Positions 42,453 through 55,591 are shown, counted from the first letter of the stretch. The stretch is DNA of 64,000 bases from Phycisphaeraceae bacterium (GCA_019636845.1 JAHBWV010000001.1:2914001-2978000), one strand, 5' to 3'. Notes: a model not told the origin generated them from the sequence alone. A program made the numbers and translations.

Positions 42453-43127
42453 TTAGCGGCGACGGCGTCCGGCGATGACACCTGCGAGGCCGAGGGCGGC
42501 GAGGGCGCCGGGCGTGGGGACCATGCCGGTCATGGCGACGACGCCGAAGTCGTTGTAGTCCTTGTCGCCGAGGTTCCAGAGGTCTTCCCATGAGAGGATT
42601 CGGCCGCAGGAACGGAGGTAGCCCTCGGCATCTCGGATCATGAGCGAGACCATGTGGTCCTTGCCGTCGGGGTTCATGCTGGTGACGCTGCGGTAGATGG
42701 TGCTGTTCACCCCGCCGTTGTCGCCGGAGTAGAAGGCGAGCCCGAAGAGGCCGCTGATGGAGAGGTCGGCGACGCTGGGAAGGCCTGAGCTGGAGCCGCC
42801 GATGACCCAGGTGATGTCGGCGGGGTTGTCGGGCATGAAGTAGCCGAGTTTGTGGTGGGGAGCGTGTCCGGCGCGCTGCCAGGAGACTTCCCAGCGCATG
42901 GATTCTGCGCCGCGGCACATCTTGAACCATTCGTCGGAGGTCTGGTCGCCGGCGGATTCGAGGAAGCCGACGCTGCTGGTGTAGCCGGCGTCATAGATGA
43001 GTTGCTGGAGGTTGGCATTGGGGCCGTCGGGGCTTGTGACGAGCTGGGCGGGGTTGATGATGTCGGCTGAGGCAGAGACGGAGGCCAGGGCGATGATGAG
43101 GCAGGTGGGCGTGAGGTTGGTGCGCAT
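42453..43127 (-). CDS. PEP-CTERM-type surface protein, DUF4114-like
   Basis: A 224-residue exported protein. A signal peptide (residues about 4-21, ending SASA) is followed by a beta-rich body with the DUF4114-like phrase SWEDLWNLGDKDYNDFGVV. The C-terminus VPTPGALAALGLAGVIAGRRRR is (with small split) a PEP-CTERM sorting signal: Pro motif, hydrophobic helix, Arg cluster. It is therefore a likely substrate of the exosortase at 54656. The ATG at 43127 has AAGGAG eight bases upstream. A much longer open frame continuing upstream is antisense to the oxidase gene and was ignored. Confidence 0.85.
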   Translation of the reverse strand: MRTNLTPTCLIIALASVSASADIINPAQLVTSPDGPNANLQQLIYDAGYTSSVGFLESAGDQTSDEWFKMCRGAESMRWEVSWQRAGHAPHHKLGYFMPDNPADITWVIGGSSSGLPSVADLSISGLFGLAFYSGDNGGVNSTIYRSVTSMNPDGKDHMVSLMIRDAEGYLRSCGRILSWEDLWNLGDKDYNDFGVVAMTGMVPTPGALAALGLAGVIAGRRRR

Positions 43128-43304
43128 CTTTGATTCTCCTTCGTGCGGGTTTGCGTGGTGCCTTGTGTGCTGGAGAAGACTGCCACACGGCGGGGTGTTT
43201 GCCAGCCGGAGGAAGGGGAGGAGGGGCTGAGAGGCGTGATCGGACCGGCGCGGGTGCTGCTGGCGGCACACACGGACCGTGCGGGTGTGGTTATGCTGAC
43301 GTGC

Positions 43305-44765
43305 ATGGCTACATCGCTGCTTGCACGTCTTGCGTTGCGTTTCGACCGCGATCGGGTGATGAGTCGGCGCGAGTTGCTGCGCGACTCGGTCGCGGCGGCA
43401 TCGGCGGTGTTGCTGGGTGCGGGTGTGGCGCGCGGGTCGATCGGCGGGCGATCGGCGGGTCGGCGCGTAGTCGTGATCGGGGCGGGATTCGCGGGGCTTG
43501 CGTCGGCGTACGAGTTGTTGAGCGCGGGACACGAGGTGATGGTTCTGGAGGCGCGTGCGCGTGTGGGCGGTCGTGTGCTGACGTTCCGCGACATGGTGCC
43601 TGGCAAGATCGTTGAGGGTGGTGGGGAGCTGATTGGTGCGAACCACCCTGCGTGGCTGGGGTACGCGAAGAGGTTCGGGCTGACGATGCGGGATGTCACT
43701 GAGGAGGATGGAGAGTTCCCGATTGTGCTGGGTGGGAGGATGCTCGACACCCGTGAAGCGGAGGCATTGTGGGAGGAGATGGAGGGCGTGCTCTCGGCTC
43801 TGAATGACGCGGCGCGAGCGGTTGATCCGGTGCGTCCGTGGGAGAGCCCGGATGCCGCGGGCTTGGATGGGCGTTCGATCGGCGAGTGGATCGACGGGCG
43901 TGGGTGCGGTGATGAGTGCAGGCGTGCTCTGCACGCGCTGATCACGGCGGATAACGGCGTTGATTCGCAGGAGCAGAGCATGCTGGCGAATCTGGCGATG
44001 ATCGCGGCGGGCGGGTTCGAGAGTTTCTGGACGGACTCGGAGGTGTATCGGTGTGCGGAGGGGAACCAGGCGCTGGCGCAGCGACTTGCGGGAGCGGTCG
44101 GTGCGGAGCGGATCCGGCTGAAGGCGGCGGTTGCGCGCGTGGAGCGGGGAGAGACGGGCGTGCGCGTGCTGGTTGGTGAAGAGGTGATCGAGGCGGATGA
44201 GGTGGTGCTTGCGACAACGCCGAGCGTGTGGGGCGGGATCGCGTTTGATCCCCCACTGCCGGACGCGCTTCGTGTGCAGATGGGGAGGAACACGAAGCAC
44301 CTGACCGTGTTGTCGGGACCGGTGTGGCGTGAGAGGGGACGCGGGCCGGACTCATTGGCCGACGGGCCGGTGCAGTTGACGTGGCATGAGACGGACAACC
44401 AGGAGTCGGATGAGGAGCGGCGCGTGGTGATGACGTCGTTCGCGGGAGGGTCGGCGACGGATGCGCTGCGGGGGATGGAGCGATCGGCGCGGGAGCGTGC
44501 GATTCTCGATCACATGGAAAGGTTGTATCCGGGTGCGGGACGCGCGGCGTTGCTCTCTCGGGATATGGACTGGGTGGGTGATCGTCTCACGGGCGGGAGT
44601 TACTCGTTCCCGGGGCTCGGGCAGTTGACGAGTTCGGGGCGAACGCTGGCGACCGGGATCGAGCGGCTGCAGTTTGCAGGTGAGCATTGCTGCCCGGGCT
44701 TCGTGGGGTATATGGAGGGCGCGCTGGAGAGCGGGATCTCTGTGGCGCGAAGGATCGGGATGTAG
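43305..44765 (+). CDS. flavin-containing amine oxidase
   Basis: A 486-residue FAD enzyme. The N-terminus carries MSRRELLRDSVAAASAVLLG, a likely Tat-type signal, then the dinucleotide-binding RVVVIGAGFAGLASAYEL and the family's LEARARVGGRV. The C-terminal block LQFAGEHCCPGFVGYMEGALESG matches monoamine-oxidase-like proteins that cradle the flavin. The substrate is unknown. The start is uncertain among ATG 43293, 43305 and 43356; none has a strong ribosome site. Confidence 0.85.
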   Translation: MATSLLARLALRFDRDRVMSRRELLRDSVAAASAVLLGAGVARGSIGGRSAGRRVVVIGAGFAGLASAYELLSAGHEVMVLEARARVGGRVLTFRDMVPGKIVEGGGELIGANHPAWLGYAKRFGLTMRDVTEEDGEFPIVLGGRMLDTREAEALWEEMEGVLSALNDAARAVDPVRPWESPDAAGLDGRSIGEWIDGRGCGDECRRALHALITADNGVDSQEQSMLANLAMIAAGGFESFWTDSEVYRCAEGNQALAQRLAGAVGAERIRLKAAVARVERGETGVRVLVGEEVIEADEVVLATTPSVWGGIAFDPPLPDALRVQMGRNTKHLTVLSGPVWRERGRGPDSLADGPVQLTWHETDNQESDEERRVVMTSFAGGSATDALRGMERSARERAILDHMERLYPGAGRAALLSRDMDWVGDRLTGGSYSFPGLGQLTSSGRTLATGIERLQFAGEHCCPGFVGYMEGALESGISVARRIGM

Positions 44766-46704: not shown

Positions 46705-46732
46705 GCGGCCCGGTTCAGGTGAGCCGGGCCGC
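46705..46732. terminator. bidirectional terminator between hsp20 and the Bfd-like gene
   Basis: GCGGCCCGGTT (46705-46715), loop CAGGTG, AGCCGGGCCGC (46722-46732): an 11-base stem with one wobble pair. It overlaps the last codons of the convergent Bfd-like gene. Confidence 0.7.
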
Positions 46733-46969
46733 TTGTGCGCGCGGAGCGGGCTGGGCGTGAAGAAGCGAGGCGAATTGTGCTCCGGTGAGGACGGGGAACT
46801 CGGTGCGGCCGGTTTTGAGCATGAGTTGGATGTAGGGGACGCAGGTGCCGCAGCCCGTGCCGCAGCCGGTGCGCTTGGAGAGCGAGTCGAGGTCCGGCCC
46901 GAGCTGCTGGGCGAGGTCCTTGAGTTCGGCGAAGGTCACGTCGTGGCAGACGCAGCGTGTGACGGGCAT
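46715..46969 (-). CDS. Bfd-like [2Fe-2S] ferredoxin
   Basis: An 84-residue protein with the bacterioferritin-associated ferredoxin pattern: C6-x-C8 in RCVCHDVT, and C36-x3-C40-x2-C43 in GCGTGCGTCVPY. Bfd proteins hold a [2Fe-2S] cluster and release iron from bacterioferritin; similar domains also occur as electron carriers. There is one cysteine more than the usual four. It begins at ATG 46969, about 110 bases after the pseudopilin gene, so it may be the last gene of the riboswitch-led operon or have its own promoter. Confidence 0.85.
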   Translation of the reverse strand: MPVTRCVCHDVTFAELKDLAQQLGPDLDSLSKRTGCGTGCGTCVPYIQLMLKTGRTEFPVLTGAQFASLLHAQPAPRAQAARLT

Positions 46970-47078: not shown

Positions 47079-47960
47079 TTATCGCCAGCGCTTCCAGTCC
47101 GGGATATAGGCGGGTTCGTTGGACGTACCGACCGAGCCGACGCGGTGCGAGGGTTGGAGGATCCAGTCGGGCTGGGCCGCGTGCGTTCGAGCAGAGCCGT
47201 CGGCCATGGCGGCGGCGGCGTTGCCTGTGTAGCCGGGTCGGGCTGCGGGGGTGACGCCGTGGCGGAAGGCCGTTGTCGGGTGTGGGTTCGGCTCCCACTG
47301 CCCGTAGCCCCTGTAGAGCATGGGCGGATCGAGGAGTGCGGTGCTTCGGCCGGGCCTTGCGGGGTTTGTGACGAGGAGTGTGTCGGCAAAGACGAGCAGG
47401 TCTGCGGGGCGCTCGATGTCGTGGATCCGCTTCCAGGGTTGGTGGCAGATCGTGGCGGACCAGCCGGGAGTCTTGTCGGGGGTGAGGTAGTAGCCGTTGT
47501 AGCCATACGTGCTGGTGATGCGTTCGGCTTCGGGGATGGATGGGCTTCCCTGGGGGATGTAGGTGCCGATCGGTTGGGAGGGGCACTCGAAGACGGAGCG
47601 TTCGCCGAGCCATCCGGCGAGGTAGGGGGAGATCAGTCCGGCGGCGTGGTCGATCGTGCCGGTTGCCGCGCCGTCGGTTCCCCACCAGAAGATGCCGTCG
47701 CCGCTGCCGACATCGCGTTCGTCGGTGTACGCGAGGGGCATCGCGTGCTCGCGATGGTCGTGCGCGTACATCATCCAGGCGTGGCCGAGTTGTCGCTGGT
47801 TGGAGAGGCAGACGACGGTTCGCGCGGCCTCTCTGGAGGATCCGAGGCCGGGGAGGAGGATGCCGAGGAGGAGCGCGATCACAGCGACGGAGACAAGTGC
47901 CTCGACGAGCGTGAAGGCGCGTGTGCGGATGGGGCGGGATGGTACGGGGCGTCGGTTCAT
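47079..47960 (-). CDS. type II secretion/type IV pilin-like pseudopilin protein
   Basis: A 293-residue protein with a prepilin leader and N-methylation site (RAFTLVEALVSVAVIALLLG), followed by a globular domain rich in aromatic residues and ending in a WKRW tail. It resembles the DUF1559-like pseudopilins that are abundant in Planctomycetota. The ATG overlaps the stop of the upstream beta-propeller gene. As part of the cobalamin-riboswitch operon it may help display or move the surface proteins, which is an inference. Confidence 0.85.
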   Translation of the reverse strand: MNRRPVPSRPIRTRAFTLVEALVSVAVIALLLGILLPGLGSSREAARTVVCLSNQRQLGHAWMMYAHDHREHAMPLAYTDERDVGSGDGIFWWGTDGAATGTIDHAAGLISPYLAGWLGERSVFECPSQPIGTYIPQGSPSIPEAERITSTYGYNGYYLTPDKTPGWSATICHQPWKRIHDIERPADLLVFADTLLVTNPARPGRSTALLDPPMLYRGYGQWEPNPHPTTAFRHGVTPAARPGYTGNAAAAMADGSARTHAAQPDWILQPSHRVGSVGTSNEPAYIPDWKRWR

Positions 47961-49564
47961 GGGCGTCCCCTGACGCCGAGCGGACCGGCCATATCGCGTT
48001 GCTCATCGCGTCGGATCTCTTCGATGAGCAGGCGTCGATCGGCATCGCTTGTGATGCCGTTGCGATCGACATCGCGCGTGCCGGGGACGGGGCCGGATGC
48101 CTCCCACGCGTGGAGGTCTTCGACGTCGATCCATCCGTCGCGGTTGACGTCGAGATCGGGACCGAAGGCGTGCAGACCCGCGGCACCGATGGTGTAGACG
48201 GATGCGCCGACGATGGCGGGGGTGCTGCCTGCGCCGAAGTAGGTTTGCACGATGAAGGAGGGGGAGTTGGGTGCGACAGAGAGATCGATGAGGCGGAGGT
48301 GGGTGCAGGGGGCGGCGGTGCTGGTTCCGGCGGGGAGTGTGCCGACGAGGAGGCGTGTAGAGGTCGGCGTGGTGAGGGCGACGGGCTGGTGGGTCCAGCC
48401 GCCGATCGAGAGGTATTCGCCGGGATCTCGGAGCCCGTTCGAGTTTGTGTCTGTCCAGGTGGCGATCGCGCTGTCCCAGAGTTGGGTCGCGCTGGGTCCG
48501 TGGTCTTGGAAGAGTTGGACGGAGGGTGAGGCACCGAAGCCGGCGATGCCGCCGGAGAGGATGATGCGTCCGTCGTCGAGGATGATGGGGATCGCGTCGG
48601 TGCGGTTGCATGGGACGCTCCAGAAGAGCGAACCGGAAACGGCGTCGAGTTTGACGAGGTTCGCGGCGTTCTGCCCGCCGCCGAAGGCGTATGAGGCGGC
48701 GTAGACGGCTTCGTGATGTGAAGTGACGCCCCCGAAGAAGCCGATGGGCTCGGTGTTGTCGTATGCCCACAGGGGCGCGTGGGGCGCGGTTGCGCGGGCG
48801 TCGAAGGCGAGGATGGAGCCGGCGGAGAATCCGAACTCTCCGACGGTGGCGACGACGATTCTGCCGCCCGCGTATGCGGGGGAGTTGCCGGATGTGCCGC
48901 CGATGATCGTTGACCAGAGGATCTGTCCGGGTGCGTGGGGATTTCGAGCGGGGTCGAAGGCGTCTGCGTTGATGCAGTAGAGTCGCCCGGACATGCCGAA
49001 GCCGTCGGCATCGGTGATGAAGATTCGGCGCGGGACGTCGGGCGTGACGAGCGGAGAGGCGTTGACGATGTTTCGGTTGAGTGTGGCGGACCAGTTCTGC
49101 GTGCCGGATTCGGCATCGAAGGAGAGGACACGATTTCCGGCGGCGACGATGACCGCGTTCGATCCCTCGTCGATCGCGGGCGAAGACCATGAGTCGGTCA
49201 CGGGATTGGGGACGGGTGAGCTCCAGAGGCATGCGCCGTCGGCGCGACGGAATGCGAAGATGCGGCTGATTCCTCCTGAGCGGCCGAGTGCGTAGAGACG
49301 CTGGCGATCGACGACTGGGCCGGACTGGCCGTTGAAAGTGATGGGGCGCGCGGACTCATCGAGGGAAGCGGTCCAAAGGGGCGCGGCAACATCGACTGCT
49401 GCCACGCCCCACTCTCCAACGAGGCCCGGGCGGGCCTCGCTCCTCGCGTAATGGGTCCAGAACGTCTGCGCTGACGCGACGGGCGCGGGGAGCGCGAGCG
49501 AGAGGGCCAGCGCGGTTGCGGCGCGCCGGCGTGTGTCCAAGACGATTCCGGACGAGGGGTTCAC
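47957..49564 (-). CDS. PQQ-like beta-propeller protein with C-terminal dockerin
   Basis: A 535-residue exported protein. A signal peptide (about residues 12-33, ending ASAQ) is followed by repeated blades of the PQQ/BamB type (for example RVLSFDAESGTQNWSATL and LVKLDAVSGSLFW). The C-terminus (about 475-520) is a dockerin-like pair of calcium loops: DLDVNRDGWIDVED and DVDRNGITSDAD. It starts with GTG overlapping the stop of the PEP-CTERM gene upstream and is coupled to the pseudopilin downstream. The propeller in a B12-controlled operon recalls Bacteroides BtuG, a propeller that captures B12. Confidence 0.87.
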   Translation of the reverse strand: MNPSSGIVLDTRRRAATALALSLALPAPVASAQTFWTHYARSEARPGLVGEWGVAAVDVAAPLWTASLDESARPITFNGQSGPVVDRQRLYALGRSGGISRIFAFRRADGACLWSSPVPNPVTDSWSSPAIDEGSNAVIVAAGNRVLSFDAESGTQNWSATLNRNIVNASPLVTPDVPRRIFITDADGFGMSGRLYCINADAFDPARNPHAPGQILWSTIIGGTSGNSPAYAGGRIVVATVGEFGFSAGSILAFDARATAPHAPLWAYDNTEPIGFFGGVTSHHEAVYAASYAFGGGQNAANLVKLDAVSGSLFWSVPCNRTDAIPIILDDGRIILSGGIAGFGASPSVQLFQDHGPSATQLWDSAIATWTDTNSNGLRDPGEYLSIGGWTHQPVALTTPTSTRLLVGTLPAGTSTAAPCTHLRLIDLSVAPNSPSFIVQTYFGAGSTPAIVGASVYTIGAAGLHAFGPDLDVNRDGWIDVEDLHAWEASGPVPGTRDVDRNGITSDADRRLLIEEIRRDEQRDMAGPLGVRGRP

Positions 49565-50376
49565 GAGCGGCGTCTCCGCGGCGCGACGAACGATGCGGCG
49601 AGGACGAGTGTGAGCGAGCCGGGCGCGGGTATCGCGGCGACGCGTGAGAGGGCGTCGATCTCGATGGCGGAGTTGCCGAAGGGGTTGCTGATGCGGACGT
49701 AGTTGACGACCGAGAGCCCGTACGCGCCGATGTCGATGCCGGTGCCACCTCCGGAGCCGTTGTACGCGTCGAGGACCTGCGTGTAGTTCATTCCGGAGAA
49801 GTCGATGGTTGGGTCGACGGGGAGGCGGAAGTTGGTGGGGACGGAGCCGCGTGTGAGGGCGAAGGGATCGGTGAGGTCGCTGTATCCGATGGTTGGGATC
49901 GAACCATCTGGGACGACGCCGGTGGCGGTGACCCAGTGGACGCCGTCGGCACTGAGTTCGACGACGCCGCCCTCGGAGAAGATTCCGCCGACGATGCCGC
50001 TTGGATAGTCGGCGTCGATGAAGGATGTGTTGCCGAAGATGAGGATATCGATACCGAAGGGGTTGTTCGGATTGTTGCGGACGGGCGTGTCGAAGCCGAG
50101 GACGATGTGGCCGCCCGTGCCGATGGAGAGGACCTGGTCGTAGTTGAACGCGCCGTTGAAGGCGGTGACGGCGGATGGATAGAGGAACTCGGCGTTATCT
50201 CCGGTGAAGCGAGATGGGCGTCCGAGAGCGGAGGCGGGGTCTGTGTAGTTCAGCGCGGGATTCGATCCGGCGTTGTAGGTGAGCCACTTTGTGGCGTATG
50301 GAGAGGAGGGGTGTGCCGAACATGCGAGTGAGGAGATCGCGACGACAGTTGAGACGATGTTCAGACGAAGGGGCAT
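49561..50376 (-). CDS. PEP-CTERM surface protein of the cobalamin-controlled operon
   Basis: A 271-residue exported protein, first gene after the cobalamin riboswitch. The signal peptide covers residues about 3-21. The body contains ASALGRPSRF, then VLSIGTGGHIVLGFDTPV and FGIDILIFGN. That layout is typical of cell-surface proteins found in cobalamin-regulated operons of other phyla (family knowledge from memory). The C-terminus IPAPGSLTLVLAASFVAPRRRR, in effect, is a PEP-CTERM signal for exosortase anchoring. The ATG at 50376 was chosen; 56 upstream codons lie in the riboswitch leader. Confidence 0.87.
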   Translation of the reverse strand: MPLRLNIVSTVVAISSLACSAHPSSPYATKWLTYNAGSNPALNYTDPASALGRPSRFTGDNAEFLYPSAVTAFNGAFNYDQVLSIGTGGHIVLGFDTPVRNNPNNPFGIDILIFGNTSFIDADYPSGIVGGIFSEGGVVELSADGVHWVTATGVVPDGSIPTIGYSDLTDPFALTRGSVPTNFRLPVDPTIDFSGMNYTQVLDAYNGSGGGTGIDIGAYGLSVVNYVRISNPFGNSAIEIDALSRVAAIPAPGSLTLVLAASFVAPRRRRS

Positions 50377-50410
50377 GAGTGAACCAATCCTGCGCCCGAG
50401 AGCGCGCACG

Positions 50411-50431
50411 CACGGTGGATCGCGCACCGTG
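50411..50431 (-). promoter_or_regulatory. leader hairpin before the PEP-CTERM gene, possible expression platform
   Basis: CACGGTG (50411-50417) and CACCGTG (50425-50431) form a 7-base stem about 35 bases upstream of the start codon at 50376. It lies between the riboswitch and the ribosome site and could relay the B12 signal. Confidence 0.4.
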
Positions 50432-50544
50432 ACTCCCGACGGGGGAAGACCCGTGGCTTCTCGCGGGGGACCGGTTCTCAACGGGAATATCGGCGCGGGA
50501 GCGAACGCCGATGACCGCCGAGGCCCCAGTCGCGAGGGCCACAC

Positions 50545-50725
50545 GACAAATCGTCGTCGGCAGGTCTTCCGGCTCGGGGCTTGCTCTGGTCCTGCCTTCC
50601 CGGCGTTCCCGCCAGTGGCTGCTCCGGATTGCTGTCCGGAGCGGTGGACCCGAGGATCATGCCCATTACGGCGGCGCGTCCGCGGTGGAATCTCACCACA
50701 CTTCCCATTTTCACCCGTGCGGCAC
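50545..50725 (-). ncRNA. cobalamin (B12) riboswitch
   Basis: Read on the minus strand, the conserved blocks appear in order: GGGAA (50706-50702), GGTGAGATTCC (50697-50687), AGCCACTGG (50620-50612), GGGAAGGC (50601-50594) and GCCGGAAGACCTGCC (50573-50559). These are the hallmark segments of the cobalamin riboswitch core, including the B12-box at the 3' end. It sits in the 406-base gap between hicB and the PEP-CTERM gene and faces the latter. In this family, B12 binding normally switches expression off. Confidence 0.88.
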
Positions 50726-50782
50726 GTGTGTGACGCGCGGGCACCGACAACGAGGGCAGCGTAGCGGAATCAGAGCGGTCGG

Positions 50783-51175
50783 TCAATCGGAATGTTTTGA
50801 TGCGTCCCGCAGAGCGGCAGCGCGTACGAAATCGGAGAGATTGCGGAACCCGGCCTGGCGGGCACCTTCGTCCAATCGTGATTTTTCATCGGAGGTGAGA
50901 CGGATATTGAGTTGGAGTTCGCGCTTTCCCTCAGAGGCGGGTTCCGGGGGGTGGTCTCCGGCTTCGAGCGCGGTCGCGATCGCGAGGGCGGTCGCTTCAA
51001 GCGTTGCCTCGGCGCAGGCGTTGATGGTGGGACCATCGGCCATGACGTAGGGAAGCTCGATGGTGCGACCGAGGTAGCCGACCCCTTGCTCGGGAGCGAT
51101 CACCAGGCGATAACGGGCGGCGAGGCGCTGGGCGGTGAGCCAGGTGGCACGATCGAAGGGGCGGTCAGCCGCCAC
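50783..51175 (-). CDS. hicB: HicB-family antitoxin
   Basis: A 130-residue antitoxin. The N-terminal half is the partly degraded RNase-H-like HicB fold (YRLVIAPEQGVGYLGRTIELP, in part). The C-terminal half is a ribbon-helix-helix DNA-binding region (LQLNIRLTSDEKSRLDEGAR, then SDFVRAAAL) that should repress its own promoter. It starts with GTG 51175, overlapping the hicA end by 11 bases; no ATG is available. It lies directly upstream of the riboswitch leader but belongs to the hicA transcript. Confidence 0.85.
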   Translation of the reverse strand: MAADRPFDRATWLTAQRLAARYRLVIAPEQGVGYLGRTIELPYVMADGPTINACAEATLEATALAIATALEAGDHPPEPASEGKRELQLNIRLTSDEKSRLDEGARQAGFRNLSDFVRAAALRDASKHSD

Positions 51176-51374
51176 TTTGGCGTTGGAGTTCTTCGATCGC
51201 TTGATCGACCTGGCGCGCGTAGATCGCTTTGACCCTGCCTTTGTGGACCGGGATCGAGATCGGTTGCCTGCCTTTGCCTCGGAAGTGGTGGTGCGAACCC
51301 TTGACACGTGTCAGTTCCCATCCATGGTGTTCGAGCAGCCGTCGCAAGTCTCTGAACTGGACCTCGGAAGGCAT
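51165..51374 (-). CDS. hicA: HicA-family mRNA interferase toxin
   Basis: A 69-residue toxin with a double-stranded-RNA-binding-like fold that cleaves mRNA when freed from HicB. The conserved pattern is RDLRRLLEHHGWELTRVKGSHHHF, here split: the helix, then the GSHHHF motif with the catalytic histidine, followed by ISIPVHKGRVKAI. The size is normal for the family. It overlaps hicB by 11 bases in the standard toxin-first order. Confidence 0.9.
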   Translation of the reverse strand: MPSEVQFRDLRRLLEHHGWELTRVKGSHHHFRGKGRQPISIPVHKGRVKAIYARQVDQAIEELQRQSGG

Positions 51375-54655: not shown

Positions 54656-55591
54656 ATGTCAACACTCCAGGCCAAAGTCGCGCCGGCCCTGAACTCGGAT
54701 CGTCGGATCCTGGGGATCCTTACGCCCACGGGTGCGGCGATGCTTCTGGTGGTTGCGGCGGCGTTCGTTGCGTTGTTTTTCCGCTGGTTCCTTGTGCAGA
54801 ATCGGCACAGCTCGAAGTCGCTCGAGGACTGGGGGCACGCGTACATCATCCCGCTGATCTGCCTGTATCTGATCCGGATGCGTGAGAAGGATCTTGCGGT
54901 TCTGAAGCCCGCGCCGTTCTGGCCGGGCTTGGTGCCGATGCTGCTTGGGATCATGTCGTACTTCTACTGCATGGTGGCGGTGAAGAACCACATGCTGCAG
55001 GGGTTCTCTCTGGTGCTGACGGTGTACGGCGCGGCGTTGCTGCTGCTGGGTCCTGCGATCGCTCGGCTGTTGTTCGTGCCCATCGGGTATCTCGCTTTCG
55101 GGATCACGATCTCCGAGGCGATCATGAACAACATCACGTTCCGTCTGCAGCTTGTGGCGTCGCAGATGTCCGAGGTGACGCTCGGCATGCTCGCGCCGCT
55201 GTTCGGTTTCTCCGTGCAGGCCGAGGGGAACTCGATCGAGTTGATCACTGCGAGCGGAAAGTCGCACCCGTTGACGATTGCCGAGGCGTGCGCGGGCCTG
55301 CGGATGCTGATCGCGTTTCTCGCGCTGGGCGTGGCGGTCGCGCTGGTGGCGTGCCGCGAGTGGTGGCAGCGGATCGCGTTGGTGCTGCTCGCTGTGCCTG
55401 TGGCGTTGCTGATGAACGCGGTGCGCGTGACGGTGCTCGGGCTTCTGACGCTTGTGAACCCGGATCTTGCGGCGGGTGAGGCGCACACGCTGATCGGGAC
55501 GTTGTTGCTGATTCCCGCGCTCGGCTTGTACATGGGCGTGGTGTGGATTCTCAACCGGATCGTGCGCAGCGGCGCGGGCGGGGGTGCGTGA
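54656..55591 (+). CDS. exosortase (PEP-CTERM protein sorting transpeptidase)
   Basis: A 311-residue integral membrane cysteine protease with about eight helices, which cleaves PEP-CTERM signals and transfers proteins to a surface anchor. The catalytic trio is present: C212 in AEACAGLRML, R257 in NAVRVTVLG and H277 in GEAHTLIG. The early WGHAYIIPL segment is also typical. It overlaps the EpsI gene (TGATG). Likely substrates in this window are the PEP-CTERM proteins at 42453 and 49561. The exosortase subtype cannot be assigned with certainty. Confidence 0.93.
   Translation: MSTLQAKVAPALNSDRRILGILTPTGAAMLLVVAAAFVALFFRWFLVQNRHSSKSLEDWGHAYIIPLICLYLIRMREKDLAVLKPAPFWPGLVPMLLGIMSYFYCMVAVKNHMLQGFSLVLTVYGAALLLLGPAIARLLFVPIGYLAFGITISEAIMNNITFRLQLVASQMSEVTLGMLAPLFGFSVQAEGNSIELITASGKSHPLTIAEACAGLRMLIAFLALGVAVALVACREWWQRIALVLLAVPVALLMNAVRVTVLGLLTLVNPDLAAGEAHTLIGTLLLIPALGLYMGVVWILNRIVRSGAGGGA

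Follow-up and report, generated by a model that had tools for sequence, protein, structure and literature searches.

Vitamin B12 exceeds the size that ordinary porins let pass, and the textbook account of its uptake by Gram-negative bacteria involves the TonB-dependent receptor BtuB. Cobalamin riboswitches are established to repress an operon when cobamide is plentiful, and riboswitches of this class can also control B12-independent isozymes. Among the closest described systems, BtuG1 of Bacteroides thetaiotaomicron is a fusion of a propeller and a BtuH domain (PMC10404256), and in BtuH2 six side chains are reported to hydrogen-bond B12, of which Asn399 contacts its phosphate (PMC8941943). Eight distant DUF4465 proteins have been demonstrated to bind B12 (PMC13398666).

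The DNA analyzed here, referred to as the window, is a stretch of 64,000 nucleotides from a Phycisphaeraceae bacterium (GCA_019636845.1, JAHBWV010000001.1:2914001-2978000). It holds an operon behind a cobalamin riboswitch, with the following features:

50542-50763, minus strand: cobalamin riboswitch aptamer (RF00174, Rfam cmscan)
50377-50541, minus strand: leader between the aptamer and the P0001 start codon, candidate expression platform
49561-50376, minus strand: P0001, proposed to bind B12; exported, BtuH-like (profile and fold), ending in a PEP-CTERM-like tail
47957-49564, minus strand: P0002, exported beta-propeller of BamB/PQQ type (PF13360) ending in a dockerin-like tail with a calcium loop
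47079-47960, minus strand: P0003, pseudopilin with N-methylation motif and DUF1559 (PF07963 and PF07596)
46715-46969, minus strand: BFD-type [2Fe-2S] protein gene (PF04324, E 1.8e-8)
54656-55591, plus strand: exosortase of the EpsH family, on a separate transcript (PF09721, E 1.6e-43)

The riboswitch had been predicted at 50545-50725 on the minus strand, an interval that makes up most of the Rfam covariance match. This match spans the full length of the model (positions 1-189) and is significant, scoring 83.9 bits (E 3.3e-19) against a curated gathering score of 31.5 bits, and it is the single cobalamin riboswitch of the genome (3.67 Mb, 95% complete). Predicted folding of the segment 50370-50580 was more stable than that of 200 out of 200 shuffles (z -2.76). 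Just upstream of the riboswitch, the interval 50783-51374 (minus) carries a HicA-type toxin gene and, behind it, the gene of a HicB-like ribbon-helix-helix protein; together they are probably a toxin-antitoxin pair.

Downstream, P0001, P0002, and P0003 are three consecutive genes on the minus strand, and adjacent ones share 4 bases, confirming the overlapping arrangement of the original prediction, as was also the case for the reported lack of TonB receptor and importer genes near the operon. No gene of the operon in the window is an obvious transporter, DUF4465 was not found in it, and the three products all look exported or surface-located. The BFD-type gene is a probable fourth member, although its tie to B12 is uncertain; in 34 of 116 loci, not counting the window's own copy, such a gene comes after the pseudopilin and on its strand.

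P0001 comprises 271 amino acids, with a signal-peptide-like start and the ending 'PAPGS-hydrophobic-RRRR'. Its start codon is most plausibly the ATG at 50376, past the riboswitch, rather than the GTG at 50544 on the riboswitch edge. The protein had been described as a PEP-CTERM surface protein acting as an anchor. Its tail does fit a PEP-CTERM sorting signal by eye, and the genome encodes an exosortase (54656-55591) that could process such tails, but the Pfam PEP-CTERM model gave no match on P0001. Another PEP-CTERM-like exported protein in the window, at 42453-43445 (minus), has a DUF4114 domain.

Searched alone, the P0001 sequence returned no informative match from Pfam (E ≤ 1), NCBIfam, or PDB sequences, and the Pfam matches at E ≤ 1 did not include PF14717 (DUF4465/BtuJ). 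Antibody light-chain matches, at E 0.03 and above, were dismissed as chance. Given this lack of a useful match, family profiles were needed. P0001 relatives from operons with a second kind of propeller, termed type B, are longer, and a profile of 26 of them matched PDB sequences of the C-terminal H domain of BtuG1 (8BLW_B, E 4e-36) and of BtuH2 (7BIZ, E 6.6e-27). The P0001-type profile (23 proteins) in turn aligned with the type-B profile at 99.8% probability over 115 columns, whereas by itself the P0001-family profile reached an E-value of only 0.11 against 8BLW; homology of P0001 to BtuH is thus drawn from the type-B intermediate together with the fold. AlphaFold2 modeled P0001 with high confidence (mean pLDDT 91, pTM 0.83), and a Foldseek search against the PDB gave 8BLW_B as the only match at E ≤ 0.001. 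In the VIA-align ranking 8BLW_B came top with Z 13.1 over 150 residues (chain 388-660), ahead of 7BIZ_B with Z 12.9 over 142 residues, and the next best scored 10.0; carbohydrate-binding modules also resemble the model, at a Z of about 9. Judged by homology through the intermediate and by predicted fold, P0001 is a member of the BtuH-domain family, and the role of mere anchor is not borne out for a relative of this B12 binder.

The contact residues of BtuH2 were placed via the type-B/7BIZ profile alignment, with the chain offset by 100. Asn399 corresponds to the N of a 'D-x5-N' stretch, which in P0001 is N116; this residue is invariant in 61 sequences, and its counterpart is also present in 26 of 26 type-B proteins. 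Gln333 is retained by the type-B proteins alone, and nothing in the P0001 alignment clearly matches the ring-contacting residues His476, Tyr510, Trp511, and Trp577, leaving Asn399 as the only one of the six B12-bonding side chains with a clear equivalent. P0001 is essentially the domain only, with neither Ig-like or PKD domains nor a lipoprotein anchor. Locus L219 encodes a lipoprotein that combines PKD-like repeats with this domain. From the profiles and the modeled fold, we infer that P0001 binds B12.

P0002 was correctly recognized as an exported PQQ-like propeller (PF13360, E 8.4e-18), but its tail is dockerin-like at most: no Pfam dockerin domain matched at E ≤ 1, and there was one weak EF-hand match. 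The analogy with BtuG that had been drawn for it found no support. The BtuG-type propeller domain PF16819 is absent from the P0002 Pfam matches at E ≤ 1, and the P0002 model (pLDDT 81.5) has YxaL and BamB as its top-ranked folds, with BtuG not among the matches listed, which does not speak against a BtuG fold. Type-B propellers likewise showed no match to BtuG, either by sequence in the PDB or as PF16819. A single open frame at L210 321-2771 encodes a BtuH-like protein with a PEP-CTERM motif plus a PQQ propeller; it reflects either a fusion or a stop codon lost in assembly and, as the motif lies midway, was not used as a P0001-P0002 fusion.

Co-occurrence of riboswitch and operon was followed in both directions, using genomes that are mostly metagenome assemblies of 66 to 100% completeness, such that gene absence means absence from the assemblies; locus counts are raw and ignore relatedness. 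In the forward direction, 61 genomes of the same family were included, the window's own among them. A cobalamin riboswitch was found in 58 (57 above the curated cut-off), one copy each save for two genomes with two, giving 60 loci (59 further regions plus our own). A BtuH-like gene was called in 55 of these by iterated profile and a pseudopilin in 54, and the type-B propeller is the first gene in 30. The five loci with no BtuH-like call are as follows: in G003 a longer frame matches P0001 strongly, G058 reaches a contig end, the operon of G013 is divided between that genome's two riboswitches, a different exported protein leads in G055_L076, and in G026 an unrelated efflux gene follows the riboswitch. 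In L213, L214, L216, L217, and L076, the first gene after the riboswitch encodes a small exported protein with the motif 'WxGxGxxxAxxVxDF'; these proteins belong to no Pfam family, save for a PEP-CTERM tail in one, and are possibly another B12-related surface protein.

The reverse direction started from the P0001 protein alone, which yielded 273 relatives in GTDB genomes. From these, 80 loci were retained, and the names of almost all their records are Planctomycetota or Phycisphaerales. A riboswitch lies upstream in 76 of them. The exact B12-box motif pair was present within 700 bases upstream in 41 loci, out of 79 upstream regions scanned for it, compared with 3 matches in the other 1.45 Mb of these loci; Rfam, applied as well to three of the 41, confirmed each, while the remaining 38 rest on the motif. 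Among the 39 motif-less loci, an Rfam match was found upstream in 35, the exceptions being L136, L148, L206, and L210, the last of which has just 416 upstream bases. In 75 of 80 loci the BtuH-like gene or its propeller has a pseudopilin as its immediate downstream neighbor, and three of the other five (L164, L165, and L196) end at a contig edge. Across 835 kb, only 3 other pseudopilin matches occur. A PQQ propeller was detected in 19 of the 80 loci, and in many loci the BtuH-like gene and the pseudopilin are both present although neither kind of propeller could be detected, making the propeller the variable part and the other two the constant pair. The pseudopilin was correctly named as third gene by the original prediction (N_methyl PF07963 plus DUF1559 PF07596), which made little use of what turns out to be the constant partner. 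The proposed Planctomycete surface module for B12 scavenging thus gains from co-occurrence in both directions and largely loses the roles it assigned to the propeller and the PEP-CTERM protein. DUF1559 pseudopilins are very common in Planctomycetes, and we know of no function for them; P0003 would serve either display or active import through a secretin.

Some relatives combine these genes with known B12 components. In a genome of the same class (G116), a cobalamin riboswitch at L218 6566-6747 is followed by DUF4465 (PF14717, E 2.3e-56), BtuH-like, pseudopilin, BtuF-type, BtuD (ABC ATPase), and BtuC-type genes, covering L218 1603-6747 plus L254 12568-14397, with the BtuC-type permease read from L254 12568-13593. 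The pseudopilin gene here lies within an operon for B12 import from which BtuB is missing; TonB-plug genes occur elsewhere in this genome, so the module may exist there alongside other routes. The G226 operon runs riboswitch, pseudopilin, BtuH-like, DUF4465.

The family as a whole looks B12-requiring and B12-auxotrophic, given that the de novo cobalamin synthesis enzyme CbiC was found in 0 of 61 family genomes and B12-binding domains in 61 of 61; as this is read from one marker enzyme, it is indicative. A metagenome study likewise inferred that a Phycisphaera strain needs external B12, and for non-producing genomes as a group it reported B12 transport genes including outer-membrane receptors (PMC7029141). 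No TonB plug domain was found in 52 of the 61 family genomes, the window's own included, which argues for TonB-independent B12 uptake, and no TonB receptor barrel was found in the window's genome (95% complete). FecCD permeases scored above the cut-off in 55 of 61 genomes, and the window's genome has one strong example, BtuC/FhuB-like, outside the operon. By hand comparison of the two hit lists for 46 genomes, 13 have such a permease no more than 6 kb from a gene with a B12-binding domain, in most cases one as large as methionine synthase; this neighborhood links the putative permease to B12 and falls short of proof. The only PF01497 (periplasmic-binding-family) protein of the window's genome was a weak candidate for BtuF and was set aside: no signal peptide is apparent in most relatives, where its presence is doubtful because the conserved region begins near the likely start codon. 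Its gene is divergent beside a GspD-type secretin and a GspE-type ATPase (L231 4010-9329; C1, about 570009-575328), an arrangement found in 18 of 20 relatives (L235-L253; it is missing from L234, and L245 ends at a contig edge).

We propose, with a probability of roughly 70%, that the operon is an extracellular B12-capture apparatus with P0001 as binder, P0003 in display or docking, P0002 as accessory, and TonB-independent entry; B12 capture as such is well supported. The riboswitch most likely shuts the operon off when cobamide is plentiful and lets it be expressed when cobamide is scarce, in a bacterium that would need B12 and is apparently unable to make it. P0001 would be exported, probably kept on the cell surface through the exosortase pathway, and would catch B12 there. 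P0003, exported by pilus or type II machinery, may display or dock the binder on a pseudopilus-type structure, a role suggested by its near-invariant pairing with the BtuH-like gene. P0002, or the other propeller in relatives, may shield, dock, or add binding surface. Captured B12 would then cross the outer membrane independently of TonB, as suggested by the lack of a detected TonB receptor, and enter through the candidate BtuC-type permease. Telling against this proposal are the single clear equivalent, Asn399, among the six B12-bonding side chains, the missing Ig-like domains and lipoprotein anchor of P0001, the sheer commonness of DUF1559 pseudopilins in Planctomycetes, and an operon without an obvious transporter.

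How far the pseudopilin takes part is where the main competing readings differ. It is quite possible, though we lean against it, that the module does no more than capture B12, or store it, on the cell surface or on shed material, with entry via a porin or an unlinked route and the pseudopilin as a secretion or display helper that moves nothing. The exported or surface-located look of all three products and an operon devoid of an outer-membrane pore gene are consistent with this, as is the precedent of BtuJ, a surface scavenger that is vesicle-borne in Bacteroides (PMC12751083). Capture alone, however, gives no reason why a pseudopilin, rather than a generic secretion gene, should be the near-invariant partner, and it leaves the place of the pseudopilin inside a BtuFDC operon (L218/L254) unaccounted for. 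At the other extreme, the pseudopilin might carry or retract the BtuH-like binder through a secretin-type pore to a BtuF/BtuCD-type importer, giving TonB-free active B12 import. Planctomycetes reportedly bind dextran on pili-like fibers of crateriform structures, and macromolecules reportedly reach their periplasm by an uncharacterized route (PMC5394234), which makes a pilus-based B12 route thinkable; we nevertheless regard this stronger version as doubtful.

Two further readings concern the ligand and its binder, and both seem to us improbable. The operon could be a B12-repressed one for a B12-independent alternative, such as an isozyme or another nutrient, with P0001 binding, e.g., a carbohydrate; the riboswitch class can govern such isozymes, and the likeness of the P0001 fold to carbohydrate-binding modules (Z about 9) fits. 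Yet BtuH domains rank first by about 3 Z units over the rest, the sequence bridge leads to BtuH, and relatives' operons add DUF4465 and BtuFDC. The remaining reading, that of the original prediction, has the propeller as a BtuG-like B12 binder and the PEP-CTERM protein only as its anchor. The joining of propeller and BtuH domain in BtuG1 (PMC10404256) and the different propeller beside the BtuH-like gene in type-B operons speak in its favor, but P0002 is a propeller of the PQQ/BamB type in which Pfam finds no BtuG-type domain, and the BtuH-like gene and pseudopilin persist in many loci that have neither propeller.

On the preferred reading, that of an extracellular capture apparatus with P0001 as binder, the operon points to an unrecognized way of B12 capture, and no description of such a system turned up among the titles and abstracts listed in searches of open-access literature. 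An apparently B12-auxotrophic family, mostly devoid of the TonB plug, keeps one B12-sensing operon. It would extend BtuH-type B12 binders outside the Bacteroidota, give one of the numerous DUF1559 pseudopilins a testable role, and allow the passage of large nutrients across the Planctomycete outer membrane to be tested directly, using two or three genes and a ligand that is small and defined. If TonB-free active import were true, B12 would be brought in much as competence pili import DNA.

Compared with known systems, P0001 shares with BtuH of B. thetaiotaomicron (BtuH2, 7BIZ; BtuG1 H domain, 8BLW) a homologous domain, riboswitch control, and export, and with BtuH2 the asparagine that contacts the B12 phosphate. 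It differs in having a PEP-CTERM-like tail in place of the Ig-like domains and lipoprotein anchor of BtuH2, in being paired with a pseudopilin rather than BtuB, and in that most ring-contacting residues are not conserved. As with BtuG, a seven-bladed surface propeller that forms the lid of BtuB, a propeller in the window shares a B12-riboswitch operon with a BtuH-like protein, but P0002 is of PQQ/BamB type with no BtuG-type domain and no BtuB partner in the genome. DUF4465/BtuJ shares riboswitch operons with the BtuH-like gene and pseudopilin in L218 and L222 and was not found in the window operon. Unlike the BtuB-BtuFCD system, the window's genome shows neither TonB plug nor receptor barrel. 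The new part would be BtuH-type capture with a new partner, the pseudopilin, and, in most family genomes, no TonB receptor. Retraction and passage of the ligand through a secretin would be conjecture for the system in the window; with DNA uptake in competence, by type IV pilus or pseudopilus, it shares a dedicated pilin-like protein beside a putative ligand-binding surface protein, and secretins are encoded in the window's genome.
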